Assembly (NCBI GenBank): GCA_026392945.1 | Contig: JAPLBB010000029.1 | Coordinates: 1 to 55,694, forward strand | Reading direction: 5' to 3' | Length of the DNA stretch: 55,694 nucleotides | From: Actinomycetota bacterium | GTDB lineage: Bacteria > Actinomycetota > Actinomycetes > Nanopelagicales > Nanopelagicaceae | In this document: one piece after another, positions 25,734-52,143 of the stretch | Numbering within the stretch: the first letter of the stretch is position 1 | Layout: every line of letters starts with the position of its first letter | Made by a program: the position numbers and the translations under genes | The notes under the pieces: generated by a model | What the model saw: the letters and a program-made list of their open reading frames with translations, nothing else | Database searches by the model: none | Told to the model about the DNA's origin: nothing

Positions 25734-27425
25734 ATGAGCGAAAAAAATCCGCCAAACAAGATGAAGCCAAGATCTGGCTTAGTCACCGATGGTATGGAGC
25801 GTGCTCCAGCTCGCGGAATGCTTCGCGCAGTTGGAATGAAAGATGAAGATTTTGCTAAACCGCAAATTGGTATTGCATCATCTTGGAATGAAATTACTCC
25901 TTGTAATTTATCTCTCGATCGTTTAGCTAAAGCATCTAAAAAAGGCGTAAAAGACGCTGGCGGTTTTCCAATGCAATTTGGCACCATCTCTGTCTCTGAT
26001 GGAATTTCAATGGGACATGAAGGAATGCACTTCTCATTAGTTTCTCGTGAAGTAATTGCTGACTCTGTAGAAACTGTAATGCAAGCAGAGCGGTTAGATG
26101 GCATGGTTACATTTGCCGGTTGCGATAAATCACTTCCTGGCATGATGATGGCAGCAGCTCGAATGGATGTTGCAAGTGTTTTTGTTTATGCAGGTTCTAC
26201 TATGCCAGGAAAAGTTGATGGCCGAGATGTAACAATCATTGATGCATTTGAAGCAGTTGGCGCCTGTGCTCGGGGATTAATTTCTCAAGAAGAGGTAGAT
26301 AAAATTGAACGAGCAATCTGTCCAGGTGAAGGTGCCTGTGGCGGTATGTACACCGCAAACACCATGGCAGCAGTAGGTGAAGCAATTGGTTTGTCACTTC
26401 CTGGCTCGGCTTCACCACCATCAATTGATCGTCGTCGTGATGATTACGCAGTTAAATCAGGAGCAGCAGTTGTTGAGTTAATTAGAAAAGGTATTACTAC
26501 TCGTCAGATTTTGACTAAGAAAGCCTTTGAAAATGCAATTACAGTTGTAATGGCATTAGGTGGATCAACAAATGCAGTGCTTCACCTTCTTGCAATCGCA
26601 CACGAGGCAGAGGTTGAATTAACACTTGAAGATTTCCATCGGGTTGGATCCAAGGTGCCACTGCTTGGAGATCTAAAACCATTTGGTAAGTATGTAATGA
26701 CTGATGTGGACAAGGTGGGTGGAATTCCAGTAGTTCTTCGCGCACTTCTTGATGCTGGTTTATTACATGGCGATTGTTTAACTGTTACCGGAAAAACTAT
26801 GGCTGAAAATCTAAAGGATGTTTCTCCTCCTGATCCAGATGGTGAAATTCTAAAAGCTGTAAATAATCCAATGTCACTTGGTGGTGGAATCACAATCCTT
26901 GGTGGCTCACTTGTACCTGATGGCGCAGTTTGTAAGACAGCTGGAGTTGGTGTTGATGTATTTGAAGGACCAGCAAAGGTTTTCGAACGTGAACAATCTG
27001 CGATGGATGCTTTAGAGAACGGCTCAATTGTTGCTGGTGATGTTGTTGTAATTAGATATGAAGGACCAAAGGGTGGCCCTGGTATGCGCGAGATGTTAAT
27101 GATTACTGGCGCAATTAAAGGTGCTGGACTTGGTAAATCTGTGTTGCTGCTAACTGATGGCAGATTCTCTGGCGGCACAACCGGTCTTTGTGTCGGACAT
27201 GTTGCTCCTGAAGCAGTTGATGGTGGTCCAATTGCATTTGTTAACAATGGTGATCGGGTAAGAATTGATATTAAGAATAGAACTTTAGATTTATTAGTAG
27301 ATGAAAAAGAGATGACAGAGCGTAAGAAAAATTTCAAACCGATCCCACACAAATATCGCCGCGGGGTTTTAGCTAAGTATTCAAAGTTAGTAGGCAGTGC
27401 AGCAAAGGGTGCGGTCTGCGATTAA
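25734..27425 (+). CDS. ilvD: Dihydroxy-acid dehydratase
   Basis: This Fe-S enzyme makes the 2-keto acids of valine and isoleucine in the third common step of branched-chain synthesis. The 563-residue sequence has cluster ligand cysteines in [10 protein letters not shown] (near residue 130) and [16 protein letters not shown], plus a conserved Cys in CKTAGVG. The C-terminal block [19 protein letters not shown] is characteristic. Long open frames on the opposite strand (for example 256 codons) are shadows. It precedes the ilvB attenuator. Confidence 0.97.
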
Positions 27426-27476
27426 TTGCAGTTTTGTTATAAGTACGCTCAAATATTGAGATTGATATCTCACGGG

Positions 27477-27505
27477 TTGACTAGACTAACTACACCTGAG
27501 AAACT
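27477..27505 (+). promoter_or_regulatory. Promoter of the ilv leader and ilvBNC operon
   Basis: The -35 box TTGACT (27477-27482) is 17 bases from GAAACT (27500-27505), which stands exactly six bases before the leader-peptide ATG. The leader message would itself be leaderless. Just upstream is the palindrome TGAGAT-TGAT-ATCTCA (27457-27472), a possible operator. Confidence 0.55.
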
Positions 27506-27511
27506 ACAGCC

Positions 27512-27586
27512 ATGAAGAACACCTCACTAATCTCACAAATTGCGATCACATCTGTGGTCGTGGTGATTATTGAGCGTGCGCGCTAA
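27512..27586 (+). CDS. ilv operon leader peptide (24 residues)
   Basis: A short reading frame of 24 codons plus stop. Ten residues are branched-chain: Leu6, Ile7, Ile10, Ile12, then the uninterrupted run Val15-Val16-Val17-Val18-Ile19-Ile20, followed by ERAR and a stop. Such a run before an intrinsic terminator is the hallmark of ribosome-mediated attenuation, as known for ilvBNC in Corynebacterium and ilvGMEDA in E. coli. Ribosomes short of valyl- or isoleucyl-tRNA would stall at codons 15-20. No Shine-Dalgarno is present; the ATG fits leaderless initiation. Confidence 0.85.
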   Translation: MKNTSLISQIAITSVVVVIIERAR

Positions 27587-27607
27587 CTAAAAAAAGTTAG
27601 TTCGCAC
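27576..27607 (+). promoter_or_regulatory. Hairpin at the end of the ilv leader frame
   Basis: GTGCG (27576-27580) pairs with CGCAC (27603-27607) and CTAACT (27583-27588) with AGTTAG (27595-27600), with a small internal loop and an A-rich apical loop. It spans the leader stop codon and shares base 27607 with the terminator stem. It may be the pause or protector hairpin; which structure acts as the antiterminator is not settled by eye. Confidence 0.55.
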
Positions 27608-27637
27608 CCCTCAGATAAAACTGGGGGGTTTTGTTTT
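27607..27637 (+). terminator. Attenuator terminator before ilvB
   Basis: The stem CCCCTCAG (27607-27614) / CTGGGGGG (27621-27628) has one G-U pair and loop ATAAAA, followed by TTTTGTTTT. It lies between the leader peptide and ilvB with no other gene to terminate, which fits an attenuator. Confidence 0.85.
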
Positions 27638-27665
27638 AGACAAGGTCTAGTTAAGAAAGGAAGCG

Positions 27666-29401
27666 ATGAGCAAGATGAATGGTGCACAAAGTTTAGTTAA
27701 CGCACTCGAGGCTGCCGGTGTTGATGTCATGTTTGGCATACCAGGCGGCGCAATTCTTCCTGCTTACGATCCAATTTTTGATTCAAAGATCCGCCATATA
27801 TTAGTAAGGCATGAACAAGGTGCAGGTCACGCTGCAACTGGTTATGCCCAAGCTACTGGTCGAGTTGGTGTTTGTATTGCAACATCTGGACCTGGCGCTA
27901 CAAATTTAGTAACACCACTTGCTGATGCACAAATGGACTCTGTTCCAATCGTGGCCATTACTGGTCAAGTTCCATCTGCAGCAATTGGTACTGATGCATT
28001 TCAAGAAGCAGATATTCGCGGCGTTACCATGCCAGTTACAAAACATAATTATTTAATTACCGACCCAGATGATATTCCACGCGCAATCGCGGAAGCATTT
28101 CATATTGCAAGTACTGGCCGGCCGGGCGCAGTTCTAGTTGATATTGCTAAAGATGCGCTGCAAAAAGAGACCACCTTTAACTATCCAAAAAATGTTTCAC
28201 TAGCTGGTTATAACCCAGTAGTTGAGCCAAAGAGTGAGGCGATCAGAGATGCCGCAGCTTTAATTACTCAATCTAAAAAACCAGTTCTTTATGTTGGTGG
28301 CGGAATAATTAAGGCAAATGCGGCTAAAGAGTTGATGCAGCTTGCTGAGATAACTGGCGCACCGGTTGTTACTACTTTGATGGCACGGGGTGCTTTCCCT
28401 GATTCACACCCACAACACCTTGGTATGCCTGGCATGCATGGAACTGTTGCTGCAGTTACCGCGCTACAAAAGGCAGATTTATTAATTACCTTAGGCGCAC
28501 GATTTGATGACCGAGTAACCGGAAAACTTTCAACCTTTGCACCAAATGCCAAGATTATTCACGCCGATATAGACCCAGCTGAAATTGGTAAGAATCGCCA
28601 TGCTGATGTAGCAATCATTGGTGACTTAAAAAATATTTTGCGCGCACTTAATCCAGCAACTAAAGCCGCATTAGCAAAATCTCACCCAGATTTAACTCCT
28701 TGGCTTACTGAAACATATGGCTGGCGAAGTAAGTTCCCATTAGGTTATGACAAACCATCTGATGGCTCTGTTTCACCACAATATGTAATTGAAAGAATCG
28801 GCAAGATCTCTGGTCCAGACACAATTTTTACAGCTGGTGTTGGTCAACATCAAATGTGGGCATCACAATTTATTGGTTATGAAAAACCAAGAACCTGGCT
28901 TAACTCAGGCGGTCTTGGAACCATGGGTTACGCAGTTCCTGCTGCAATGGGTGCAAAGGTAGGAGCTCCTGACACAACTGTTTGGGCAATTGATGGTGAT
29001 GGCTGTTTCCAAATGACTAATCAAGAGTTAGTAACTTGTGCGCTGAACAATATTCCAATCAAGGTAGCAGTAATTAATAATGAATCACTTGGCATGGTCC
29101 GCCAGTGGCAAACTCTTTTCTATAACCAACGTTATTCAAATACTGATTTGCACTCAAAGCGAATCCCAGATTTCAAATTATTGGCTGAAGCAATGGGTTG
29201 TGTTGGTTTGCGTTGTGAGCGGCCAGAGGATGTTGATAAAACTATTGAGGCAGCGATGGCAATTAATGATCGTCCAGTTGTAGTTGATTTTAATGTTCAT
29301 CGTGATGCAATGGTTTGGCCGATGGTGGCTGCTGGCACATCAAATGATGACATCACAGTTGCCAGATCAATGGCCCCGGTCTGGGATTCACAGGAGTTGT
29401 A

Positions 29402-29402
<1 letters not shown>
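27666..29402 (+). CDS. ilvB: Acetolactate synthase large subunit
   Basis: This ThDP-dependent enzyme condenses pyruvate with pyruvate or 2-ketobutyrate in the first common step of valine and isoleucine synthesis. The 578-residue product has [12 protein letters not shown], the catalytic Glu in [14 protein letters not shown] (near 51), and the ThDP/Mg motif [14 protein letters not shown] near residue 445. The ATG has ribosome binding site AAAGGAAG, 28 bases after the attenuator T-run. ilvN overlaps the stop by one base. Confidence 0.97.
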
Positions 29403-32600
<3,198 letters not shown>

Positions 32601-32604
<4 letters not shown>

Positions 32605-33638
32605 AGAGTTTTAATTTAGCTGTCATACCAGGAGACGGCATTGGACCTGAGGTAGTAGGTGAAGGACTTAAGGTTTTAGATGCGGTTGCGAAAAAATATG
32701 ATTTAACCTTTAACAAAACTAATTATGATTTAGGTGCTGCCTATTGGCACAAGACTGGTGAAACTTTGCCTGATTCTGTGATGGCTGAGTTGGCAAAATC
32801 TGATGTAATTTTGTTAGGTGCGGTAGGAGATCCAACTGTGCCAAGTGGAGTATTAGAGCGAGGATTACTTCTTAAATTACGATTTGCTTTTGAACATTAT
32901 ATAAATTTACGCCCAGCTAAATTATTTCCTGGAGTGATCTCACCAATTACAAATAATAAAGGCATTGATTTTGTAGTGGTTAGAGAGGGAACAGAAGGTC
33001 TTTATGTTGGTGCTGGCTCATTAAAAGATGAGGGCACAAATAAAGAGTTAGCAATTGAAGAGTCGATTAATACCTATAAAGGTGTTGAGCGAGTAATTAG
33101 AGATGCATTTGACCGAGCAAAGCTTCGGCCACGCAAAAAACTGACCTTAGTTCACAAGAACAATGTGTTGGCAAGAGCTGGTGGGCTTTGGACTCGAGTG
33201 TTTAACGAGGTTGCAAAGGATTTCCCGGAAGTTACAACTGATTACTTACATGTTGATGCTGCCTCAATGTTTTTTGTAACAAATCCAGAGAGATTTGATG
33301 TGGTAGTAACTGATAATTTATTTGGCGACATCATTACTGATATCGCAGCTGCTATCTGTGGTGGCATTGGACTTGCTGCTAGTGGAAATATAAATCCAAC
33401 TGGTGCTTTTCCATCTATGTTTGAACCAGTTCATGGCTCAGCCCCTGATATTGCTGGAAAAAACTTAGCTGATCCAACTGCAACTGTTTTATCAATTGCG
33501 ATGATGCTAAATCACTTAGGTGAGAGTAAGGCTGCAAATGATGTTGAGGCAGCAGTGGCAAAGGATCTTGCTAGCCGGGCAGATAAGAAGCGTTCAACAA
33601 CTGAGGTCGGCGCAGCATTAGTGGCGGGTGTGTCATGA
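32601..33638 (+). CDS. leuB: 3-isopropylmalate dehydrogenase
   Basis: An NAD-dependent oxidative decarboxylase of leucine synthesis that may also act on the methylmalate intermediate of the citramalate route. The start [12 protein letters not shown], the loop [10 protein letters not shown], the metal Asp block [13 protein letters not shown] and the NAD site [13 protein letters not shown] identify LeuB in 345 residues. The lack of a Tyr/Lys pattern specific for isocitrate and the neighbours favour LeuB over Icd. leuA, leuC and leuD are not in the window. It overlaps serA and ilvE by four bases each. Confidence 0.93.
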
Positions 33639-34720
33639 AGATAATTAGTAATCCAAATACAAAACCAGTTGATGCAGCAGATCGCGATAAAAGAGTTGCT
33701 GAGCCTGGCTTTGGTAAGTACTACACCGACAATATGGTTATTGCGCAATGGAATGAAGCAACCGGCTGGTCTGATGCGACATTGCAGGCATATGGTCCGC
33801 TTTCATTAGATCCAGCCACAATGGTTTTTCATTATGGCCAAGAGATATTTGAAGGAATGAAGGCATATTCCCAACCAGATGGTGGTATTTCTTTATTTAG
33901 ACCAGAGGCAAATGCAAAACGTTTTGCAAAGTCAGCAGCTCGTATTGCACTACCGGAAATGCCAATTAATTTCTTTGTTGAAACAGTTGAAGCATTAGTT
34001 AAAGCTGATAAGAATTGGGTACCAAAAAAGACTGGTGAATCTTTATACATCCGCCCATTTATGATTGCAACCGAGGTTGGTTTAGGTGTTCGCCCATCTA
34101 ATAAAGCGACATATGTATTAATTTCAACTCCTGCTGCTGCTTACTTTAATGCGGCAAAGGCGGTAACAGTTTGGATCTCAACTGAGTATGTAAGAGCAGC
34201 ATTAGGTGGCACCGGAGAAGCTAAGTGCGGTGGAAATTACGCTGCGTCTCTGCTTGCACAAAAACAAGCAGCTAAAGAGGGTTGTGATCAGGTTGCATAT
34301 ATTGATGCAGTAGAACGCAAGTGGGTAGAGGAGATGGGTGGCATGAATCTCTACTTCATTAAGGGAAGTGGCAAAGATGCCAAGATAATGACTCCAAAAC
34401 TTACCGGCACATTACTTCCTGGAATTACTCGTGATTCAATTTTAACCTTAGCAAACGACCTTGGGTATAAAACTGAGGAAACTATGATCTCAATTGATGA
34501 CTGGCGCGATGGCGTTAAATCAGGTGAGATAACTGAAATTTTTGCCTGCGGTACTGCTGCTGTTGTATCTGCAGTAGGAAGTGCGAAAAGTATTCACGGC
34601 ACCTGGCAAACCGGTGATGGAAAGCCTGGAGCTATTACAAATGAGATTCGCGCAACATTGCTTGGAATTCAACATGGAACTATTGAAGATAAGCACGGCT
34701 GGAATAAGCGAGTTATCTAA
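33635..34720 (+). CDS. ilvE: Branched-chain amino acid aminotransferase
   Basis: A fold-type IV PLP enzyme that performs the last step of Leu, Ile and Val synthesis. The 361-residue protein is the type II (long) BCAT form, with the PLP lysine in [10 protein letters not shown] and the block [13 protein letters not shown] after it. [13 protein letters not shown] near residue 67 is the conserved N-domain motif. Tight overlaps with leuB and cimA place it in one long amino acid operon. Confidence 0.95.
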
Positions 34721-36309
34721 TGACAATAAATGATTCATTTCATATCTATGACACCACCCTTCGTGATGGCGCCCAACAAGAGGGCTTAAATCTCTCTGTC
34801 CACGACAAATTAACTATTGCTCGTCATCTAGATGATTTAGGTGTTGGCTTTATTGAAGGTGGCTGGCCAGGAGCAAATCCGAAGGACACTGAGTTTTTTA
34901 AATTAGCTCAAACTGAATTAAAGTTAAAAAATGCCACCTTTGTTGCCTTTGGTGCAACGAGACGGCCTGGAGTTAAAGCTTCTGATGATGTGCTGCTTCG
35001 AGCATTACAAGATTCAAAAGCTGCTGCCGTAACACTTGTGGCAAAGAGCCATGATCGCCATGTGGATCTAGCGCTAAAGACTCATTTGGATGAAAACCTA
35101 GCAATGATCGCTGATTCGATTAAGTTTTTAAAAGCAGGAGGCCAGCGAGTATTTCTAGATGCCGAGCACTTCTTCGATGGCTATATTTCAAATAAAGCAT
35201 ACGCACTTGAGGTAGTAAGAGTTGCCGCAGAAGCTGGTGCTGACGTGGTTGCACTTTGTGACACAAATGGCGGAATGCTCCCTGATGAGTTATCAAATAT
35301 TGTCCATGAGGTTTTAACTGCCTCGTCTGCTCGGCTTGGAATTCATTGCCATAATGACACTGGCTGTGCTGTTGCTAACTCACTTGCTGCTATCTCTGCT
35401 GGTGTTACCCATGTTCAAGGAACTTTAAATGGTTATGGCGAGCGAACTGGAAATGCTGATCTAGTAAATATCATTGCAAATCTTGAATTAAAGAAAGATA
35501 AATTAGTTTTGCCTGCTGGCAAATTACAAGAGGCGTTTCGTATTTCACATGCTGTTGCTGAGATTACAAATGTAGCACCAAGTGCGCGCCAACCATATGT
35601 TGGAACATCTGCCTTTGCTCACAAAGCAGGATTACATGCATCTGCAATCAAGGTAGATCCAATGATGTATCAACATGAAACCCCAGAATCAGTTGGCAAT
35701 GACATGCGAATGTTGGTCTCTGAGATGGCAGGTCGGGCTTCAATCGAACTTAAATCTGTTGAGCTTGGAATTGATTTAGGTGGCGATAAAGATTTGATTG
35801 GCAGAGTAGTCGAAAAAGTTAAAGATCTTGAAGGTAAAGGTTTCACCTTCGAAGCAGCTGATGCCTCATTTGAATTACTACTTCGCACTGAAGTTTTAGG
35901 AAAGCGCCCAAGCTTTTTCACAATCGAAGATTGGCAAACTACAGTTCACCAAAATGAATCCGGCAAAGTAACCTCTAAGGCAACTGTAAAGATAAGTGCA
36001 AAGGGTGAATCGATCTCTGCCCAAGGTGTTGGAAATGGTCCAGTTAACGCGATTGATAATGCACTTAGAACTGGTCTTGAGAAGTTTTATCCAGAGCTTT
36101 CAAAACTTGAGTTAACTGATTACAAAGTTCGTATTTTGGAAGGCCGGCTTGGTACAGGTGCGGTGACTAGAGTTTTAGTTGAGACTAGTGATGGAAATGG
36201 CGAGTGGAGCACAATTGGCGTTCACGAGAACGTAATTGCAGCCTCAGCAATGGCATTAGATGACGCGGTTACCTATGGCTTACTAAGGCAGGGGCGCAAA
36301 CCCGAGTAA
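34720..36309 (+). CDS. cimA: (R)-citramalate synthase
   Basis: This enzyme condenses pyruvate with acetyl-CoA to citramalate, a threonine-independent route to 2-ketobutyrate and isoleucine. The DRE-TIM core has DTTLRDGAQQEG (about 10-21), the metal motif GIHCHNDTGCAVANS and GTLNGYGERTGNADL. The C-terminal LeuA-dimer regulatory domain follows (about 395-525). The QQEG variant after the DRDG loop and the GWPGANPKD motif are features of CimA rather than LeuA. The 529-residue length also fits CimA. Homocitrate-type or second isopropylmalate synthase activity cannot be excluded from sequence alone. Confidence 0.88.
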   Translation: MTINDSFHIYDTTLRDGAQQEGLNLSVHDKLTIARHLDDLGVGFIEGGWPGANPKDTEFFKLAQTELKLKNATFVAFGATRRPGVKASDDVLLRALQDSKAAAVTLVAKSHDRHVDLALKTHLDENLAMIADSIKFLKAGGQRVFLDAEHFFDGYISNKAYALEVVRVAAEAGADVVALCDTNGGMLPDELSNIVHEVLTASSARLGIHCHNDTGCAVANSLAAISAGVTHVQGTLNGYGERTGNADLVNIIANLELKKDKLVLPAGKLQEAFRISHAVAEITNVAPSARQPYVGTSAFAHKAGLHASAIKVDPMMYQHETPESVGNDMRMLVSEMAGRASIELKSVELGIDLGGDKDLIGRVVEKVKDLEGKGFTFEAADASFELLLRTEVLGKRPSFFTIEDWQTTVHQNESGKVTSKATVKISAKGESISAQGVGNGPVNAIDNALRTGLEKFYPELSKLELTDYKVRILEGRLGTGAVTRVLVETSDGNGEWSTIGVHENVIAASAMALDDAVTYGLLRQGRKPE

Positions 36310-43830: not shown

Positions 43831-45258
43831 TTGAAAACGCTACAAAACTTCATTAACGGTAAGTATGTCACTCCTACATCTGAGAAGGTGCAGGATTTAA
43901 TTAACCCTGCAACTGGTGAGGTATTTGCAAAAGCGCCGGTTTCAAATACATCCGATGTTGATAAGGCAATGAAATCTGCCGAGAGCGCCTTTGAAAGTTG
44001 GAAGGATTCAACTCCAGGAGAACGTCAAAAAGCAATCAATAAGATTGCAGATGCAATTGAGGCAAGAAGTGAAGAGTTAATTGGTATTGAATCAGAGAAC
44101 ACCGGTAAGCCAATTGCGGTAACTAGAGCAGAAGAGATTGGTCCGATGTTGGATCAAATTAGATTTTTTGCCGGCGCTGCTAGAAATTTAGAGGGCAAAG
44201 CAGCAGGTGAGTACTTTAAGGGACATACATCTTTTATTCGCCGTGAACCAATTGGAGTTTGCGCACAGGTGACACCTTGGAATTACCCAATGATGATGGC
44301 AGTCTGGAAGTGGGCGCCAGCAATTGCGGCTGGAAATACAGTTGTTTTAAAGCCAAGTGATACCACGCCAGTTTCAACACTTTGGATGGCTGAGTTAATG
44401 CAGGAGTTTTTACCAGAGGGTGTAATAAATGTAGTAATAGGAGATCGTGATACTGGCCGGGCATTAGTTGAACATGAAATTCCACAAATGGTTTCAATCA
44501 CCGGTTCAGTACGTGCTGGCATGGAGGTTGCTTCAAGTGCAGCAAAGGATTTAAAAAAGGTTCACTTAGAGCTGGGTGGAAAAGCACCAGTTGTAATCTT
44601 TGATGATGCAAATTTGGAAGCTGCATGTGAGTGGATTGCAATTGCTGGCTACTTCAATGCCGGTCAAGATTGCACATCTGCAACCAGAGTTTTAGTAGAA
44701 GCAAGTGCTTATGATGATGTGGTTGCGCTTCTAACTGAGCAAGCAAAAAATGTCATTAAAGTAGGTATGCCAAATGAGGATGTATTAGTAGGTCCAGTTA
44801 ATAATGCTAATCAGTTAGCTAGAGTGCAAGGATTTATTGACCGTGCACCTTCACATGCCCGAATTACTGCAGGTGGCACCGCAATTGCTCGCCCTGGATA
44901 TTTCTGGAATCCAACTGTGATCGCTGATTTAAATCAAGATGATGAAATGATTCAAAATGAGATATTTGCACCAGTAATCACGGTGCAGAAATTTACCGAT
45001 GAAGCACAAGCTGTTCGCTATGCCAATGGTGTTAAGTACGGCTTGGCATCTAGTGTTTGGACGAAGGATCATGGGCGTGCAATGCGAATGGCAAAGGCAT
45101 TTGATTTTGGTTGTGTTTGGATTAATACTCATATCCCAATGGTTGCTGAGATGCCACATGGTGGGTTTAAGCACTCAGGTGGTGGCAAAGATCTCTCAGG
45201 TTATAGTTTTGATGAATACACCCGCATCAAGCATGTAATGACCAACCTAAACGCCTAA
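43831..45258 (+). CDS. Aldehyde dehydrogenase, probable 4-aminobutyraldehyde (1-pyrroline) dehydrogenase
   Basis: An NAD(P)-dependent aldehyde dehydrogenase of 475 residues. The Rossmann region is standard. The active-site Glu is in HLELGGKAP (about 248) and the catalytic Cys in AGQDCTSATR (near 281). The segment GYFNAGQDCTSATRV and the C-terminal VWINTHIPMVAEMPHGG-like block resemble gamma-aminobutyraldehyde dehydrogenases (PatD/Prr type) more than betaine aldehyde or succinate-semialdehyde dehydrogenases. The adjoining pot transporter, ureohydrolase and gabT support this. Guanidinobutyraldehyde is an alternative substrate. The start is TTG with ribosome binding site AGGGAG. Confidence 0.85.
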   Translation: MKTLQNFINGKYVTPTSEKVQDLINPATGEVFAKAPVSNTSDVDKAMKSAESAFESWKDSTPGERQKAINKIADAIEARSEELIGIESENTGKPIAVTRAEEIGPMLDQIRFFAGAARNLEGKAAGEYFKGHTSFIRREPIGVCAQVTPWNYPMMMAVWKWAPAIAAGNTVVLKPSDTTPVSTLWMAELMQEFLPEGVINVVIGDRDTGRALVEHEIPQMVSITGSVRAGMEVASSAAKDLKKVHLELGGKAPVVIFDDANLEAACEWIAIAGYFNAGQDCTSATRVLVEASAYDDVVALLTEQAKNVIKVGMPNEDVLVGPVNNANQLARVQGFIDRAPSHARITAGGTAIARPGYFWNPTVIADLNQDDEMIQNEIFAPVITVQKFTDEAQAVRYANGVKYGLASSVWTKDHGRAMRMAKAFDFGCVWINTHIPMVAEMPHGGFKHSGGGKDLSGYSFDEYTRIKHVMTNLNA

Positions 45259-45307
45259 GTTGGCCAAGAAATAATCTCAATATTTACAATTTATTTACAT
45301 AATATTG

Positions 45308-45336
45308 GCGACAGCAGGCTGATCTAGGTCTAGTAT
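45308..45336 (+). promoter_or_regulatory. Possible promoter of potDABC
   Basis: GCGACA (45308-45313) is 17 bases from TAGTAT (45331-45336); the predicted start near 45343 leaves about 40 untranslated bases before potD. The 125-base spacer is otherwise AT-rich without a strong terminator. Confidence 0.35.
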
Positions 45337-45383
45337 TTTGCCAAAGCCGCTCTTCGATTGAGCTCTTAAGAGAAAGTGATCTA

Positions 45384-46592
45384 ATGACCAACCAAGATTC
45401 CAACACAAATCTGCATAAGAAATTAGCAGCCGATAATTCACTTCCATCAGAGATTAAGAAGTTAATTAGCAAATCTCTAACTCGGCGTAATGTGTTGGCA
45501 GGAGTTGGCGCAGCAGGTGCGGCTGCAACTTTGGCAGCTTGTGGTGGTGGCGGTGGATCAGCTGATGCAAACACTGTTCGTTGGGCTAACTGGACGCTTT
45601 ATTTAGATTATGACTCAGAGAAGCAGACCTACCCGACCCTTGATGCATTTGAAGCACAAACTGGAATTAATGTTTCCTACAAAGAAGATGTGAATGATAA
45701 TGATGAGTTTTATGGCAAAGTACAAGGCCAATTAAGTTTAGGAAAAGATATTGGGTATGACTTAGTTGTTTTAACTGACTGGATGGCAGCACGTTGGGTT
45801 CGACTCAATTACGCACAGAAGTTTTCTGCAGATACTGTGCCAAATAAGAAAAATATTATCCCAACTTTAGCCTCGCCATCATTTGATCCAAATCGTGAAC
45901 AAACTTTGCCATGGCAGACCATCATGGCTGGCTTTACCTGGAATAAAGAAAAAATTCCAGGTGGCATTAAGAATTTTGATCAATTTTTTGCGCCAGCAAA
46001 TAAGGGCAAAGTTGAAGTTTTATCTGAAATGCGCGACACCATGGGCGTTATCATGCTTTCCCAAGGTGTAGATATTACAAAATTCACTGAAGATCAATTT
46101 ATGAATGCAATTGATTTCTTACAAAAGAAGATCAAGGATGGTTTTATCCGCCAGGTTAAGGGTAATGACTATAAGGAAGATTTAATCTCAGGGGATGCAA
46201 TTGCAGTTATTGGCTGGTCTGGCGATACCTTCCAGCTTGCTACTGAAAATAATGGCAAGTTTGGTTTTGCGATTCCAGAGTTTGGCGGAACTATTTCATC
46301 AGACAATATGATGATTCCAACGCCATCTACCAATGCAGCGGGGGCGCAGAAATTAATGAATTATTACTACGATCCAGTAGTTGCCGCAAAGGTGGCTGCA
46401 TATGTTAATTATGTTTGCCCGGTTGCTGGTGCTCAAGAGGAGTTACTGAAAATTGATCCAGCATTAGGCAACAGTGAATTTATCTTCCCAACTGCTAAGA
46501 CTTCGGCGAAGTTGAATATCTTCCGTGGGCTTACTGCAGCCGAGGAGACTAAATTCCAAACTGCATTTCAGACGGCGGCTGGTAATGCGTAA
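45384..46592 (+). CDS. potD: Polyamine ABC transporter substrate-binding lipoprotein (PotD/PotF family)
   Basis: A 402-residue extracytoplasmic binding protein for putrescine, spermidine or a related cation. The N-terminus is unusual in combining a long cytoplasmic stretch, a twin-arginine motif (TRRNVLAG, Arg34-Arg35) and a lipobox with lipidation Cys53 (LAAC), followed by a Gly-rich linker. This predicts Tat export followed by lipid anchoring. The mature part has the PotD-like start RWANWTLYLDYD and YDLVVLTDWMAARW. It heads potD-potA-potB-potC with one-base and four-base overlaps, so all four parts of the importer are present. Ligand choice cannot be read from sequence. Confidence 0.9.
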   Translation: MTNQDSNTNLHKKLAADNSLPSEIKKLISKSLTRRNVLAGVGAAGAAATLAACGGGGGSADANTVRWANWTLYLDYDSEKQTYPTLDAFEAQTGINVSYKEDVNDNDEFYGKVQGQLSLGKDIGYDLVVLTDWMAARWVRLNYAQKFSADTVPNKKNIIPTLASPSFDPNREQTLPWQTIMAGFTWNKEKIPGGIKNFDQFFAPANKGKVEVLSEMRDTMGVIMLSQGVDITKFTEDQFMNAIDFLQKKIKDGFIRQVKGNDYKEDLISGDAIAVIGWSGDTFQLATENNGKFGFAIPEFGGTISSDNMMIPTPSTNAAGAQKLMNYYYDPVVAAKVAAYVNYVCPVAGAQEELLKIDPALGNSEFIFPTAKTSAKLNIFRGLTAAEETKFQTAFQTAAGNA

Positions 46593-47722
46593 TGGCAGTT
46601 GATGCCTCAACCTCAGCTCGCGGAGATTTAATATTAAAAAATCTGACCAAGTCATATGGTGATTTCAATGCAGTTGATGATTTATCACTTGTAATTCCAA
46701 AAGGTTCTTTCTTCGCATTACTTGGACCTTCTGGTTGTGGCAAGACTACAACATTGCGAATGGTTGCAGGACTTGAAGAACCAACTGCTGGCTCCATATT
46801 TGTTGGTGAAACTGAAATTACCGATATGAAACCGTATCGACGTCCTGTAAATACTGTCTTTCAAAACTATGCCTTATTCCCACATCTTTCAATCTTTGAA
46901 AATATTGCATTTGGTCTGCGCAGACGAGGCATCAGTGATGCTGAGGTTAAGAGTGCAGTGGATAAGGTTTTGAACTTAGTTGAACTACCTCAACTTGCAA
47001 CGAGAAAGCCAAACCAATTATCAGGCGGTCAGCAACAACGTATTGCTGTCGCTCGAGCAATTGTTAACCGGCCAGCGCTTTTACTATTAGATGAACCCCT
47101 TGGTGCCCTCGACTTAAAGTTAAGAAGACAGATGCAGATTGAGTTAAAGTGGATTCAAACTGAGATCGGCATAACTTTCGTGCATGTAACTCATGACCAA
47201 GAAGAGGCTATGACTATGGCCGACACAATTGCAGTTATGAATAAAGGAAAGATTGAGCAGATGGGATCGCCTGAAGAACTGTATGACTCACCAAAGACGG
47301 CATTTGTAGCTAACTTCCTAGGTCAATCAAATTTAATTCCTGGTCAAGTAAGTGGTAATGATGGAAACAATTTAATTGTTGATTTATTTGGTACCAAGGT
47401 GTCTGTTCCCAAGGCACGCAGCTCTGCGCATGGAGTCTCAGTGTTAGTTGGAATAAGGCCTGAGAAATTTAGAATTTCACCTGAAGGAAAAAATGTTTCG
47501 GGCAATGTTCTAACTGGTGGAAAAGTATCTGATGTTTCATATATTGGAGTTTCTACCCAGTACCAAGTTGAAATGCCATGGGGTAAAGAGTTAATGGTCT
47601 TTGAACAAAATGACGACGATGAGGAGATGCTGCGCAAGGGGGAGAATGTCACACTTTCTTGGGAGCCAATCTTTACCTTTGCCTTAGACGGTAGTGAAAA
47701 CGCTGCAGCCGGATCTCATTAA
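46592..47722 (+). CDS. potA: Polyamine ABC transporter ATP-binding protein
   Basis: The ATPase that powers polyamine uptake. Walker A is GPSGCGKTT (45-53), the Q-loop follows, the ABC signature is LSGGQQQR (about 142-149), Walker B is LLLLDEPLGALD, and the switch His is in VTHDQEEAM. A C-terminal TOBE_2 domain (about 285-365) is typical of PotA/CUT1-type subunits. Length is 376 residues. The start overlaps the potD stop (TAATG). Confidence 0.93.
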   Translation: MAVDASTSARGDLILKNLTKSYGDFNAVDDLSLVIPKGSFFALLGPSGCGKTTTLRMVAGLEEPTAGSIFVGETEITDMKPYRRPVNTVFQNYALFPHLSIFENIAFGLRRRGISDAEVKSAVDKVLNLVELPQLATRKPNQLSGGQQQRIAVARAIVNRPALLLLDEPLGALDLKLRRQMQIELKWIQTEIGITFVHVTHDQEEAMTMADTIAVMNKGKIEQMGSPEELYDSPKTAFVANFLGQSNLIPGQVSGNDGNNLIVDLFGTKVSVPKARSSAHGVSVLVGIRPEKFRISPEGKNVSGNVLTGGKVSDVSYIGVSTQYQVEMPWGKELMVFEQNDDDEEMLRKGENVTLSWEPIFTFALDGSENAAAGSH

Positions 47723-47724
47723 CG

Positions 47725-48612
47725 ATGGCGTCTATTCGGGGGGTATCGGCTAAATCATTTGGTTTAAAAGATAATAAATCAGCTCTTCCTTATTTATTAT
47801 TAGCGCCAGGTTTGGTTTATTTAGCAGTATTTTTTATCTACCCAATTATCTCACTCGGCCAAATGTCCACAAAAACCTCAAGTGGTGAGATTGGTCAGTA
47901 CAAGCAAAGTTTTAGGTTTGCTAACTATGTGGATGCATTTCTAGAGAGTAAAGAACAATTTAGTCGTTCATTTATATACGCCACAATTGCAACTGTACTG
48001 GCGTTGGCAATTGCTTACCCACTTGCGTATGCAATCGCATTCAAATCTGGAAGATGGAAAAATGTTTTATTGGTTTTAATTGTTGCACCATTTTTTACCT
48101 CATTTTTGCTCAGAACTATCGCTTGGAAGCAAATACTTGGCGAAGAAGGCCCTGTGATAAAAGTTTTGCGAGGACTTCATATTATTTCTCCCCAAACCAC
48201 TTTAACTGCCACATCTTTTGCAGTAGTCACTGGCCTTGCTTATAACTTCCTACCATTTATGACCTTGCCACTTTATGCATCCCTTGAACGAATAGATCCA
48301 AGAACACTTGAAGCATCAGGTGACCTTTATGCAAATGGGTTTACAACATTTCGAAAAGTAACTTTGCCTCTTTCAATGCCAGGTGTAGTTGCTGGCACAT
48401 TGCTTACTTTTATTCCAGCAGCTGGTGATTACATAAATGCTGCAATCCTAGGAAGTCCAAGTAATAAAATGCTGGGAAATGTAATTGATGCTCGCTTCTT
48501 TAAGATTGTTGATTATCCCACTGCTGCCGCTCTCTCATTCACTTTAATGGCAGCTATTTTGATTTTGGTCACTGTTTACATTAGAAAAGCTGGAACAGAG
48601 GAGTTGGTATGA
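47725..48612 (+). CDS. potB: Polyamine ABC transporter permease PotB
   Basis: A 295-residue inner membrane permease with six likely helices and a large first extracytoplasmic loop (about 50-80). The EAA coupling loop is EASGDLYANGFTTFRKVTLP, which docks on PotA. Membership in the PotB branch follows from gene order and the loop sequence. It overlaps potC by four bases. Confidence 0.92.
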   Translation: MASIRGVSAKSFGLKDNKSALPYLLLAPGLVYLAVFFIYPIISLGQMSTKTSSGEIGQYKQSFRFANYVDAFLESKEQFSRSFIYATIATVLALAIAYPLAYAIAFKSGRWKNVLLVLIVAPFFTSFLLRTIAWKQILGEEGPVIKVLRGLHIISPQTTLTATSFAVVTGLAYNFLPFMTLPLYASLERIDPRTLEASGDLYANGFTTFRKVTLPLSMPGVVAGTLLTFIPAAGDYINAAILGSPSNKMLGNVIDARFFKIVDYPTAAALSFTLMAAILILVTVYIRKAGTEELV

Positions 48613-49406
48613 AAAAACTTACTCGCTGGCTATCGAAGAATTTAATTAAAGTTTACGCATTTTTAGGATTTACTTACCTATTTATTCCAGTCTTTTATAC
48701 CTTTGCATTCTCATTTAATAATTCTGGACGTAGTAACTTGGTATGGAAAGGTTTCACATTAAAGAATTGGAAAAATCCATGTGGGGCTCCAGATATATGT
48801 ATGGCGCTTGGTAACTCATTAAAGATTGGCTTAATCTCAACTATTTTGGCAACAGTACTGGGTACTTTAATTGCCTTCGCATTAGGCAGATATAAATTTG
48901 CTGGCCGTTCAACAACTAACTTGCTCATCTTTTTACCAATGGCGACACCCGAGATCGTGCTTGGCGCTTCTCTTCTCACTATGTTTTTAAATCTTGGCAT
49001 TACCCCTGGTTTAGTTCCAACAATTATTGCTCATGTGATGTTTTGTATCTCGTTTGTGGTGGTAACAGTTAAAGCTCGTATCGCATCCTTAGATCCACGC
49101 CTTGAACAAGCTGCGATGGATCTATACGCAAATGAATGGCAAACTTTTAGAAGAGTTACCTTGCCACTAGTTGCCCCTGGAATTGCGGCAGCAGCCTTAC
49201 TTTCTTTCTCTCTTTCCTTTGATGATTTTATTATTACCAACTTCAACTCTGGCACGGTTACCACTTTTCCAAAGTTTGTTTACACCGCGGCAGCTCGAGG
49301 AATTCCAGCACAAGCAAATGTGATTGGATCTTCGATGTTTTTTATCGCCTTAATTGTTGTAGTGGTAGGCCAGGTACTTAGTAACAAACGTAAGGTTAAG
49401 ATTTAA
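48609..49406 (+). CDS. potC: Polyamine ABC transporter permease PotC
   Basis: The second permease, 265 residues, with six likely helices and the EAA loop EQAAMDLYANEWQTFRRVTL. The two permeases would form the heterodimeric channel. The segment LIFLPMATPEIVLGASLL is typical of PotC. Just after its stop lies a fragment resembling the start of agmatinase, hinting that an agmatinase gene once followed potC directly. Confidence 0.92.
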   Translation: MKKLTRWLSKNLIKVYAFLGFTYLFIPVFYTFAFSFNNSGRSNLVWKGFTLKNWKNPCGAPDICMALGNSLKIGLISTILATVLGTLIAFALGRYKFAGRSTTNLLIFLPMATPEIVLGASLLTMFLNLGITPGLVPTIIAHVMFCISFVVVTVKARIASLDPRLEQAAMDLYANEWQTFRRVTLPLVAPGIAAAALLSFSLSFDDFIITNFNSGTVTTFPKFVYTAAARGIPAQANVIGSSMFFIALIVVVVGQVLSNKRKVKI

Positions 49407-49409
49407 CTT

Positions 49410-49463
49410 ATGAGCAATATGGTCGGTATGTATGGCCCTGACTTTACCTTTTTAGATAGTTAA
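49410..49463 (+). pseudogene. Truncated copy of the agmatinase 5' end (17 codons)
   Basis: Three bases after potC, an ATG opens a 17-codon frame whose residues 7-15 (MYGPDFTFL) are identical to residues 7-15 of the agmatinase encoded 380 bases downstream, after which it runs into a stop. Over 51 bases, 40 match, and several mismatches are at synonymous third positions, so the copies have diverged for some time under a protein-coding pattern. It is either a relic of an earlier speB or a retained short peptide frame. No ribosome binding site is evident. Confidence 0.7.
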
Positions 49464-49517
49464 CAAAAGCATTTATATTAAAGCAAGAACTTTCAACAAA
49501 AACCTATTTTTATTAAC

Positions 49518-49661
49518 TTAGCCGTCTAACCCATAAGGATCATTATCATTTGAAGTACGCCTTCTAATTCTAATTTTATGAATTGACTGGTCAGTTTCTG
49601 GATCATAGAACTCAATGCGCTTACCGAAAATTAAATCTGCAAGCCAGTCTAGAAAACGCAC
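49518..49661 (-). CDS. Small basic/acidic protein of unknown function (47 residues)
   Basis: A minus-strand frame with GTG start preceded by AGAAAGGA five bases upstream. The product begins VRFLDWLADLIFG, an amphipathic helix, followed by KRIEFYDPETDQS, a basic cluster (RIRRR) and a polar Asn/Asp-rich end. It reads like a real protein: few rare residues, a clear ribosome binding site, and codon use like its neighbours. An in-frame ATG at 49682 would add seven residues but lacks a ribosome binding site. I recognise no family. It is transcribed against potABC and agmatinase and lies exactly between the agmatinase fragment and the intact gene. The remaining parts of this 386-base spacer are the speB upstream region and AT-rich sequence without visible genes. 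Confidence 0.65.
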   Translation of the reverse strand: MRFLDWLADLIFGKRIEFYDPETDQSIHKIRIRRRTSNDNDPYGLDG

Positions 49662-49728
49662 TTGATTCCTTTCTAAATTCATGTACCTACAATTTTGAGG
49701 AGACTAAATACTACTGCTTAAACTGGTG

Positions 49729-49768
49729 TAATTGGCATTAGATAGTCATTTTTTTACTGCGCCAATTA
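49729..49768. repeat. Inverted repeat upstream of agmatinase, candidate operator
   Basis: TAATTGGC (49729-49736) and GCCAATTA (49761-49768) are perfect inverted copies, 32 bases centre to centre, about three DNA turns. The downstream arm lies at the -35 zone of the agmatinase promoter. The loop contains seven consecutive T residues. A dimeric regulator or loop-forming repressor would fit. Confidence 0.45.
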
Positions 49769-49779
49769 ACTACTGGATA

Positions 49780-49785
49780 TATACT
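49780..49785 (+). promoter_or_regulatory. Near-leaderless -10 box for agmatinase
   Basis: TATACT is seven bases before the agmatinase ATG; no Shine-Dalgarno is present. Confidence 0.45.
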
Positions 49786-49792
49786 TAATCCT

Positions 49793-50794
49793 ATGACCAA
49801 CATTGGCAATATGTATGGGCCTGACTTCACCTTTTTAGGAATTCCAAGATGTGATTTAGATAAGCCAGACACATACAAAGGTGCTGATGTAATTATTGTT
49901 GGCGCACCAATTGATAGTGGAACATCCCACCGCTCTGGCGCCAAGATGGGTCCGCAAGCAATTCGAATGGGTGATTACTTACCTCATGATGCATCCCGGC
50001 CACACCTTGCAATGCGAATTGATCCACTTCAAAAATTAAAGATTTATGATGCGGGTGATCTTTTAATGCCAGGCGGAGATTTAGTTAAATCATTAAAGGT
50101 ATTAGAGATTGCAACGGAGAAGATTTCTAAAGCTGGCGCGATCGCAGTTGTCTTAGGTGGCGATCACTCAATTGCATCCGCTGATGTGACTGGCATTGCT
50201 AATCATTTAGGTAAGGGCAAAGTTTCAATGATTCACTTTGATGCTCACGCCGATACTGGCGAAGATCAATTTGGGGCGCTAATCGGCCATGGCACACCAA
50301 TGCGCCGATTAATTGAATCAGGATCTGTTCGTGGTGATCGTTTCTTGCAATTAGGACTTCGTGGTTACTGGCCAGATGATGCAACCTTTAAATGGATGGC
50401 AAGTAAAGGAATGAAATCTTATGAGATGACTGAGATTCATCATCGGGGGATGAAAGCATTATTAGATGAATCATTTGCAATTCTGACTGATGGTTGTGAT
50501 GGCGTATTTTTATCTGTAGATATTGATGTGGTTGATCCTGGTATGGCGCCCGGTACTGGAACCCCAGAGCCAGGCGGCATGACAAGTAGAGAATTATTAG
50601 AGGCAGTGCGCCGAATTTGTCTTGAGTTACCAATTGTTGGTGTTGATATTGTTGAGGTTGCACCTGCCTATGACACCAGTGATATAACTGCAATATTGGC
50701 GAACCGAGTTGTATTAGAGGCGCTTAGCGCGATTGCATTAAAGAAAAGTGGTGGAAAGTACTCTGCGGTAAGAAATGTTTTAGATCGAGATTAA
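49793..50794 (+). CDS. speB: Agmatinase-family ureohydrolase
   Basis: A 333-residue metal-dependent hydrolase that releases urea from a guanidino compound. All six dinuclear manganese ligands are present: His125 (GGDHS), Asp150, His152 and Asp154 (FDAHAD), Asp243 and Asp245 (SVDIDVVDP). The N-terminal GAPIDSGTSHRSGAKMGP is the agmatinase/guanidinobutyrase pattern rather than arginase. Agmatine to putrescine is the default call; guanidinobutyrate to GABA is equally compatible with the neighbours. It has its own promoter and converges on gabT two bases downstream. Confidence 0.88.
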   Translation: MTNIGNMYGPDFTFLGIPRCDLDKPDTYKGADVIIVGAPIDSGTSHRSGAKMGPQAIRMGDYLPHDASRPHLAMRIDPLQKLKIYDAGDLLMPGGDLVKSLKVLEIATEKISKAGAIAVVLGGDHSIASADVTGIANHLGKGKVSMIHFDAHADTGEDQFGALIGHGTPMRRLIESGSVRGDRFLQLGLRGYWPDDATFKWMASKGMKSYEMTEIHHRGMKALLDESFAILTDGCDGVFLSVDIDVVDPGMAPGTGTPEPGGMTSRELLEAVRRICLELPIVGVDIVEVAPAYDTSDITAILANRVVLEALSAIALKKSGGKYSAVRNVLDRD

Positions 50795-50796
50795 TT

Positions 50797-52143
50797 TTAA
50801 AGAGAAGCAATAGCTTCATCTAAAACAGCTAATCCATCTTTAAGAAGTGCCTCATCAATTGCAAGTGATGGCAATAATCTAATTACATTTGCATAGGTGC
50901 CAGCAGAGATAATTAATACACCCTTACTTACGCAATACTTAATAATTGCAGCCTGGGCCTCTGAGTTTGGCTCATCGGTGCCAGGCTTTACTAACTCAAT
51001 TGCCTGCATTGCGCCTCTGCCTCTTACCTCACCAATTATTGGATACTTCTTTGCCATTTCATTAAGCGCATCGGTCATAATTTTGCCGATCTTGTTAGCG
51101 CGCTCAACCAGATTATCTTTTTCAATTGTTTCGATTGCACCCAATGCTGCAGCACAGGCGATTGGATTTCCACCGTATGTGCCACCTAAGCCACTTAGGT
51201 GAATTGAATCCATAACATCAGCTCGGCCGGTTACCCCGGCAAGTGGCAGACCGGCAGCAATTCCCTTTGCGGTGACAATTAAATCTGGAACCACAGATTC
51301 ATCTTCACATGCAAACATATGACCTGTTCTAGCAAATCCAGTTTGCACCTCATCTGCGATAAATATAATTCCGTTCTCTTTACAGAATTTAGCAAGCCCC
51401 GGTAGAAAGCCCTTACACGGAACAATGAATCCACCCTCACCAAGAATCGGTTCTATAACAATACAAGCCACATTACTGGCACCAATCTCTTTTTCAATTT
51501 TATGGAGAACTGAAAATAAAATAGAACTTTCACAAGGTTTAGTGCATGCGTCGCATCGATATGGGTAAGCCAATGGCATTCGGTAAACGTCTGGAGCAAA
51601 GGGTCCAAATCCATCCTTGTATGGCATATTCTTCGCTGTCATCGCCATAGTTAAATTAGTTCGTCCGTGGTATCCGTGCTCAAAAACAATAACAGCAGAT
51701 CGTTTAGTAAATTTACGAGCAATCTTTACTGCATTTTCTACTGCTTCAGCACCTGAGTTGAAGAGAGCCGATTTCTTCTTATGAGTGCCCGGAGTCAAAC
51801 GATTTAGCGCCTCGCACACCTCGACGTAACCGGTGTAAGGCACCACCATGAAGCATGTGTGGGTGAAGGCTTCAATTTGTGTTTTAACATTTTCAATAAC
51901 TTTACTTGCGCTATGTCCAACATTTAATACTGCAATTCCGGCGCCTAAATCAAGAATTGAGTTGCCATCAACATCAACAATAATTGAACCTTCAGCACGT
52001 TCAATAAATACTGGAAAAGCTGTTCCAAGGGATGCTGATACGGCATCTGCTCTGCGCTTAATTAATTCGGCAGATTTTGGTCCAGGAATAGCGGTAATCA
52101 GATTACGCTTTTGAGCGATCGGATTTTTTGCCTCTGAGTACAT
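50797..52143 (-). CDS. gabT: 4-aminobutyrate aminotransferase
   Basis: A class III PLP transaminase of 448 residues. The PLP lysine is Lys293 (VTAKGIAAGLP) and the pyridine-N contact Asp is in IADEVQTGF (about 262-270). NSGAEAVENAVKIAR at 129-143 and YHGRT at 158-162 are GabT signatures. It would convert GABA to succinate semialdehyde; the semialdehyde dehydrogenase is not in the window unless the cassette dehydrogenase does both jobs. A small Cys cluster (Cys197, Cys200, Cys204) sits in a surface loop. A TAGCAT box stands six bases before the ATG. Confidence 0.9.
   Translation of the reverse strand: MYSEAKNPIAQKRNLITAIPGPKSAELIKRRADAVSASLGTAFPVFIERAEGSIIVDVDGNSILDLGAGIAVLNVGHSASKVIENVKTQIEAFTHTCFMVVPYTGYVEVCEALNRLTPGTHKKKSALFNSGAEAVENAVKIARKFTKRSAVIVFEHGYHGRTNLTMAMTAKNMPYKDGFGPFAPDVYRMPLAYPYRCDACTKPCESSILFSVLHKIEKEIGASNVACIVIEPILGEGGFIVPCKGFLPGLAKFCKENGIIFIADEVQTGFARTGHMFACEDESVVPDLIVTAKGIAAGLPLAGVTGRADVMDSIHLSGLGGTYGGNPIACAAALGAIETIEKDNLVERANKIGKIMTDALNEMAKKYPIIGEVRGRGAMQAIELVKPGTDEPNSEAQAAIIKYCVSKGVLIISAGTYANVIRLLPSLAIDEALLKDGLAVLDEAIASL

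Follow-up and report, generated by a model that had tools for sequence, protein, structure and literature searches.

A probable leaderless ribosome-mediated attenuator upstream of ilvBNC in a freshwater member of the Nanopelagicales

Gene content and upstream elements of the ilvBNC locus

The window analysed in this study is the whole 55,694-nucleotide stretch of contig JAPLBB010000029.1 (assembly GCA_026392945.1, positions 1 to 55,694 of the forward strand) from a member of the Nanopelagicaceae. The source organism is a freshwater actinobacterium of tiny size, and its assembly comprises 1.03 Mb in 69 contigs with an estimated completeness of 84.6%. The features described between 27416 and 31016 lie on the plus strand. 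The gene ilvB (27666–29402) encodes the acetolactate synthase large subunit and shows 97% identity to homologues from Candidatus Nanopelagicus and unnamed acI actinobacteria. It is followed by ilvN (regulatory subunit, 29402–29953) and ilvC (ketol-acid reductoisomerase, 29991–31016, with its ATG inside an open reading frame of 29874–31016), both named by sequence. A Shine-Dalgarno element, AAAGGAAG, was read from the sequence at 27656–27663, ahead of ilvB. On the 3′ side of ilvBNC, serA is followed by leuB-like, ilvE-like and citramalate/isopropylmalate synthase-like genes (32601–36309, names by sequence), which run in a single direction with small gaps and form a long branched-chain amino acid (BCAA) gene cluster with ilvBNC. 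Farther along, at 43831–52143, genes named from sequence as aldehyde dehydrogenase, agmatinase-like ureohydrolase, aminotransferase and a polyamine-type ABC transporter (binding protein, ATPase and two permeases) possibly serve polyamine uptake and use.

Several elements were located between the end of ilvD and the ilvB leader. A candidate terminator over the ilvD end, consisting of a weak stem CTGCGATTAATTGCAG (27416–27431) followed by TTTTG and recognised by consensus match only, would insulate the ilvB leader from upstream transcription. The palindrome CTCA-N5-TGAGA at 27448–27461 is a candidate operator for an NdgR/LtbR regulator of the IclR family and is conserved in the genus and in many Actinomycetes ilvB promoters. 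A second inverted repeat, TGAGAT-N4-ATCTCA (27457–27472), overlaps the first just 5′ of the −35 element and is the sole perfect match in the window. Both palindromes are found again at ilvB promoters of actinobacteria ranging from Nanopelagicales to Streptomyces. The first was also present in 11/11 iclR–leuC intergenic regions taken from genus mates. Its matches numbered 24–25 in each of three complete genomes of the genus, versus 3–12 for the reversed control pattern. An IclR_C protein was found in 23 of the 25 genus genomes, with no such gene in the 84.6%-complete source assembly, and the IclR gene was divergent from leuC in both neighbourhoods read (L123 and L127). By eye, the candidate operator GCTCAAATATTGAGA agrees at 11 of 15 positions with the published 15-bp NdgR/LtbR motif KTYCRSMWYSYGRRM (PMC8222616); in S. 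coelicolor, NdgR binds 5′ of ilvB (PMC4340878). A dual control, in which attenuation would be combined with the action of an NdgR/LtbR-like protein, seems likely. The element CTCAAATATTGAGA also lies just 5′ of a second dihydroxy-acid dehydratase family-like gene in the same genome (L111:1501-1514; G000:C1:9352-9365), possibly as another regulon member or by chance.

Promoter, leader peptide and predicted leaderless start

The −35 hexamer TTGACT (27477–27482), conserved in the genus, is separated by 17 nt from the −10 hexamer GAAACT (27500–27505), which is preceded by TGA as in extended −10 promoters. The six bases ACAGCC lead from there to the leader ATG at 27512, and the promoter and start codon given in a preliminary description of this DNA thus agree with our coordinates base for base. 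A consensus sigma-70 promoter scan scored 0 sites at the ilvB leader promoter because GAAACT lacks the first T; the promoter by itself is unconvincing, and its support therefore comes from conservation. The −10-like box (G/A)A(A/T)ACT, in the form GAAACT, GATACT or AAAACT, was positioned exactly 6 nt before the ATG in 22/22 genus members, and this distance is fixed while the −35/−10 spacer varies between 17 and 18 nt.

The leader open reading frame MKNTSLISQIAITSVVVVIIERAR (27512–27586) comprises 24 codons, is predicted to be leaderless and ends with the stop codon TAA at 27584–27586. Its control codons, Val15–Val18 and Ile19–Ile20 (GTG GTC GTG GTG ATT ATT, 27554–27571), form the Val4-Ile2 run noticed earlier ahead of ilvBNC, and this run was kept in 22/22 genus members. 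The frame proved to be conserved, as the open reading frame, both hairpins described below and the −10-like box were retained in each of the genus relatives whose leader is complete (21/21); their peptides end in SVVVVIIERA(R/H), SVIVVIIERAR or AVVVVIIERAR. Mean identity to the window was 95% over the antiterminator and terminator region and 92% at leader third codon positions from codon 12 on. The ilvB fourfold sites reached 54%, and the spacer past the U-tract 57%. The excess of the leader third positions over the ilvB fourfold sites indicates that synonymous positions in the leader are constrained by RNA structure.

The ribosome binding site described as missing from the leader is indeed absent: no Shine-Dalgarno sequence was found 5′ of the leader ATG in the genus, where the longest match to AGGAGG was 3 nt, whereas ilvB itself is preceded by AAGGAAG. 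Some GC-rich relatives carry purine runs 5′ of the leader ATG that double as the −10 region. Among 98 ilvB loci of Actinomycetes, a search confined to distances of 33–38 nt placed the start of a short BCAA-rich open reading frame 35–38 nt past a −35-like xTGAC in 80 loci. When the distance limit was removed and only ATG starts were counted, 59 of 80 TTGAC-to-ATG spacings were 35–38 nt, the distance expected with +1 at the ATG, and 39 of them were at 36 nt. Leaders mapped as leaderless, with the transcription start site at the ATG, include MNIIRLVVITTRRLP of C. diphtheriae ilvB (PMC5784534) and the ilvL leader MRTRILVLGKRVG of S. lividans (PMC8079986); the latter peptide is identical to the leader detected here in Streptomyces olivoreticuli (L107). 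From this geometry and precedent, we infer that transcription begins on the first base of the leader ATG, give or take one nucleotide. Leaderless initiation, as proposed in the preliminary description, is thus the best reading of the fixed 6-nt geometry in the genus, the spacing peak and the mapped starts in ilvB leaders of relatives. The leaderless feature of ilvB leaders is already published and is not new; on the present comparison, a leaderless leader peptide at a constant spacing from its promoter may be the rule for actinobacterial ilvB operons.

Leader RNA structures and the position of the ribosome

An intrinsic terminator precedes ilvB as claimed, with a 9-bp hairpin (27606–27629, −15.7 kcal/mol) detected by terminator scan and folding and a U-tract TTTTGTTTT (27629–27637); the hairpin lies 36 bp from the ilvB ATG at 27666. 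The scan returned 3 terminator-like sites versus 0.5 expected in shuffles, this one among the matches, and a terminator between the leader and ilvB was present in all genus relatives. The hairpin across the stop codon was likewise recovered, with 12 bp and one internal mismatch (27576–27607) and the TAA in its 5′ arm. In most of the Actinomycetes ilvB leaders with a terminator found, a stop-codon hairpin likewise abuts it; the automatic class-wide detection behind this set missed some terminators, such as those of L034–L036 with a short U-tract.

The stop-codon hairpin and the terminator share 2 nt only and can nearly coexist, and a fully exclusive two-hairpin toggle was ruled out by energy evaluation. 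The antiterminator predicted by folding spans 27570–27614 (−20.3 kcal/mol), includes the leader stop codon and the terminator 5′ arm, and pairs 27570–27574 with 27610–27614, 27576–27580 with 27603–27607, and 27582–27588 with 27595–27601. Because of the 2-nt overlap, the antiterminator would act kinetically through its 5-bp extension (27570–27574/27610–27614), which makes up most of its overlap with the terminator. In the folds it lies where a structure freed by a stall and masked at the stop codon would be expected. Half of the relatives cannot form the pair 27571–27613 of this extension, and in several other Nanopelagicales the extension could not be recognised.

The minimum free energy (MFE) fold of the free leader has three parts, namely an anti-antiterminator, the stop-codon hairpin and the terminator. 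The first of these is a third element that was overlooked in the earlier reading. It occupies 27523–27574, pairs 27523–27526 with 27571–27574 and 27528–27532 with 27565–27569 (strands CUCA/UAAUC and GAUUA/UGAG), and encloses a hairpin over the Val codons (27539–27549/27554–27564). The covariation proposed as a check in related leaders was found in this element, at the pair 27526/27571 (alignment columns 20/65), and not in the antiterminator and terminator, which are uninformative within the genus because they are almost invariant. In 20 distinct sequences the pair was A-U in 8, G-C in 10, G-U in 2 and unpaired in none, and both positions are synonymous wobble positions (Ser5 TCA/TCG and Ile20 ATT/ATC). 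Over the whole four-helix structure, 11 of 771 cells were changed on both sides, and none of 500 shuffles scored as high; sliding the helix partners yielded at most 1 doubly changed cell. The first helix of the anti-antiterminator was 88.9% paired overall; two of its other pairs are disrupted in at most half of the sequences. When the states of 27526/27571 were mapped on the ilvB tree, A-U required about 4 changes, of which well-supported branches force only 1, and relatedness therefore inflates the covariation cell counts.

The leader was folded with and without a parked ribosome, whose edges were taken from general knowledge of footprints. When the ribosome is parked on Val15, the extended antiterminator (27570–27614, −19.9 to −20.3 kcal/mol) forms in the nascent RNA before the terminator 3′ arm emerges. 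The extension is lost with the ribosome at Val18, only the top 6 bp are left at Ile20, and no structure forms ahead of the terminator when the ribosome occupies the stop codon. These folds predict that stalls at Val15–17 leave the antiterminator free and that stalls at Ile19–20 or at the stop codon mask it. Codons 15–20, treated alike in the preliminary description, are thus not equivalent, since ribosomes on Ile19–20 would mask the antiterminator. The finished terminator was favoured in every ribosome state (−28.0 with it versus −20.3 for the extended antiterminator alone), so that antitermination must be kinetic, as a race with the polymerase at the U-tract.

Proposed mechanism, alternatives and known systems

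Very probably, ilvBNC is controlled by a ribosome-mediated transcription attenuator, and the leader peptide is made from a leaderless mRNA. Attenuation by branched-chain codons, the mechanism first named for this leader, is the best reading in view of the comparative support and the published precedent (PMC11857589). From the observed sequence, conservation, pairing and energetics, we infer the start site, translation, stalling and read-through as follows. RNA polymerase would start on the first base of the leader ATG or one nucleotide from it, and the ribosome would initiate directly at this 5′ end, with no need of a Shine-Dalgarno sequence. With ample Val-tRNA, the ribosome would reach the stop codon and cover the antiterminator 5′ arm (27570–27588), whereupon the 9-bp terminator would form flush with the U-tract and transcription would stop. 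When Val is short, or Ile or Leu via upstream codons, the ribosome would stall before or within Val15–17, breaking the anti-antiterminator (27523–27532/27565–27574) and freeing 27570–27588 to pair with 27595–27614. The antiterminator would then hold the terminator 5′ arm until the polymerase clears the U-tract, and ilvB would be transcribed. Without translation, the anti-antiterminator would capture 27565–27574, and termination would be the default. An extended version of this reading, in which the attenuator senses both charged Val-tRNA and the speed of 70S loading on leaderless mRNAs, as a class-wide actinobacterial design coupled to the NdgR/LtbR operator of the same promoter, is speculative and on the whole improbable; there, folding of the anti-antiterminator would block 70S loading because its 5′ arm begins 12 nt from the leaderless 5′ end.

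Three other explanations were weighed. The terminator might be constitutive or weakly regulated and set a basal level, with the peptide codons irrelevant and control exerted mainly from the palindromes by a repressor or activator of the NdgR/LtbR type. The conservation of CTCA-N5-TGAGA at ilvB and iclR–leuC and the binding of NdgR at S. coelicolor ilvB (PMC4340878) would fit this view, as would the replacement of the S. coelicolor ilvB control codons, reportedly without effect in a citing passage of PMC1262725. It is nevertheless quite unlikely, given that the Val/Ile run, wobble bases and the stop codon within the antiterminator hairpin are strictly conserved, that the anti-antiterminator pair covaries, and that nutrients or mutation affect the leaders of C. 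ulcerans and C. glutamicum (PMC10272879, PMC11857589).

Attenuation could also be real with a transcript that begins further upstream, the leader frame being reached by scanning or weak initiation, and the off-consensus −10 GAAACT and the empty promoter scan speak for such a start. Against it stand the 6-nt distance from −10 to ATG in 22/22 genus members despite a 17–18 nt spacer, the lack of a Shine-Dalgarno sequence before the leader ATG, and the starts mapped at the ATG in the C. diphtheriae and S. lividans ilvB leaders, which together make it very unlikely. Some ilv operons elsewhere are under ppGpp riboswitches, and a strong structure 5′ of a biosynthetic operon might suggest a ligand-binding riboswitch or a T-box in place of a translated leader. 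This explanation is barely credible, since conservation tracks a reading frame that contains a run of BCAA codons. No Rfam family reached the gathering threshold, sub-threshold matches were at chance level, and T-box features were absent.

A literature search returned no paper on such an ilvB leader in Nanopelagicales. Our analysis carries the attenuator known from Corynebacterium, where mutations support it, over to the streamlined Nanopelagicales of fresh water and provides comparative evidence for the anti-antiterminator hairpin, which is hard to tell from the antiterminator in Corynebacterium. A switch of this kind is no new principle, since leaderless ilvB leaders have been published for C. 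diphtheriae and S. lividans and the three-hairpin model for C. glutamicum; the missed anti-antiterminator and a probable NdgR/LtbR operator are the additions made here.

The S. lividans ilvL (PMC8079986) and C. diphtheriae ilvB (PMC5784534) leaders share with this one a BCAA-rich leader and hairpins or a terminator before ilvB, although their peptide sequences differ and their starts are mapped rather than predicted. The Corynebacterium ilvB-II motif (PMC10272879) likewise has an upstream ORF (uORF) across P1 and a terminator P2 with a U-tract about 150 nt before ilvB, with a uORF of 30–72 nt compared with 72 nt here; that motif is defined for Corynebacterium only, and no Rfam model matches the window. 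In M. tuberculosis ilvB1NC (PMC13236596), a uORF with BCAA codons, masking of the antiterminator by a ribosome at the stop codon and a terminator before ilvB also occur, whereas the control codons are LVVI, with an abundant terminated transcript of about 120 nt and a leader of 166 nt.

The closest comparison is with C. glutamicum ilvBNC, for which a model of three hairpins (anti-antiterminator, antiterminator and terminator) has mutational support (PMC11857589). The operon is the same, the translation start lies 1 nt from the transcript start, the stop-codon antiterminator overlaps the terminator base by a few nucleotides, and the anti-antiterminator uses the 5′ part of the leader ORF (PMC11857589); the overlapping 'fast' attenuator proposed there resembles the kinetic race here. 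The leader has 15 codons there and 24 here, where the control run is Val4-Ile2 with Ile/Leu upstream, and the antiterminator and terminator overlap at their base by GCC there and by 2 nt (AC) here. The leader sequences are unrelated, and the genome here is AT-rich. An anti-antiterminator of the C. glutamicum type, joining the 5′ part of the leader ORF to the antiterminator 5′ arm, is present here according to the MFE fold and the pair 27526/27571.
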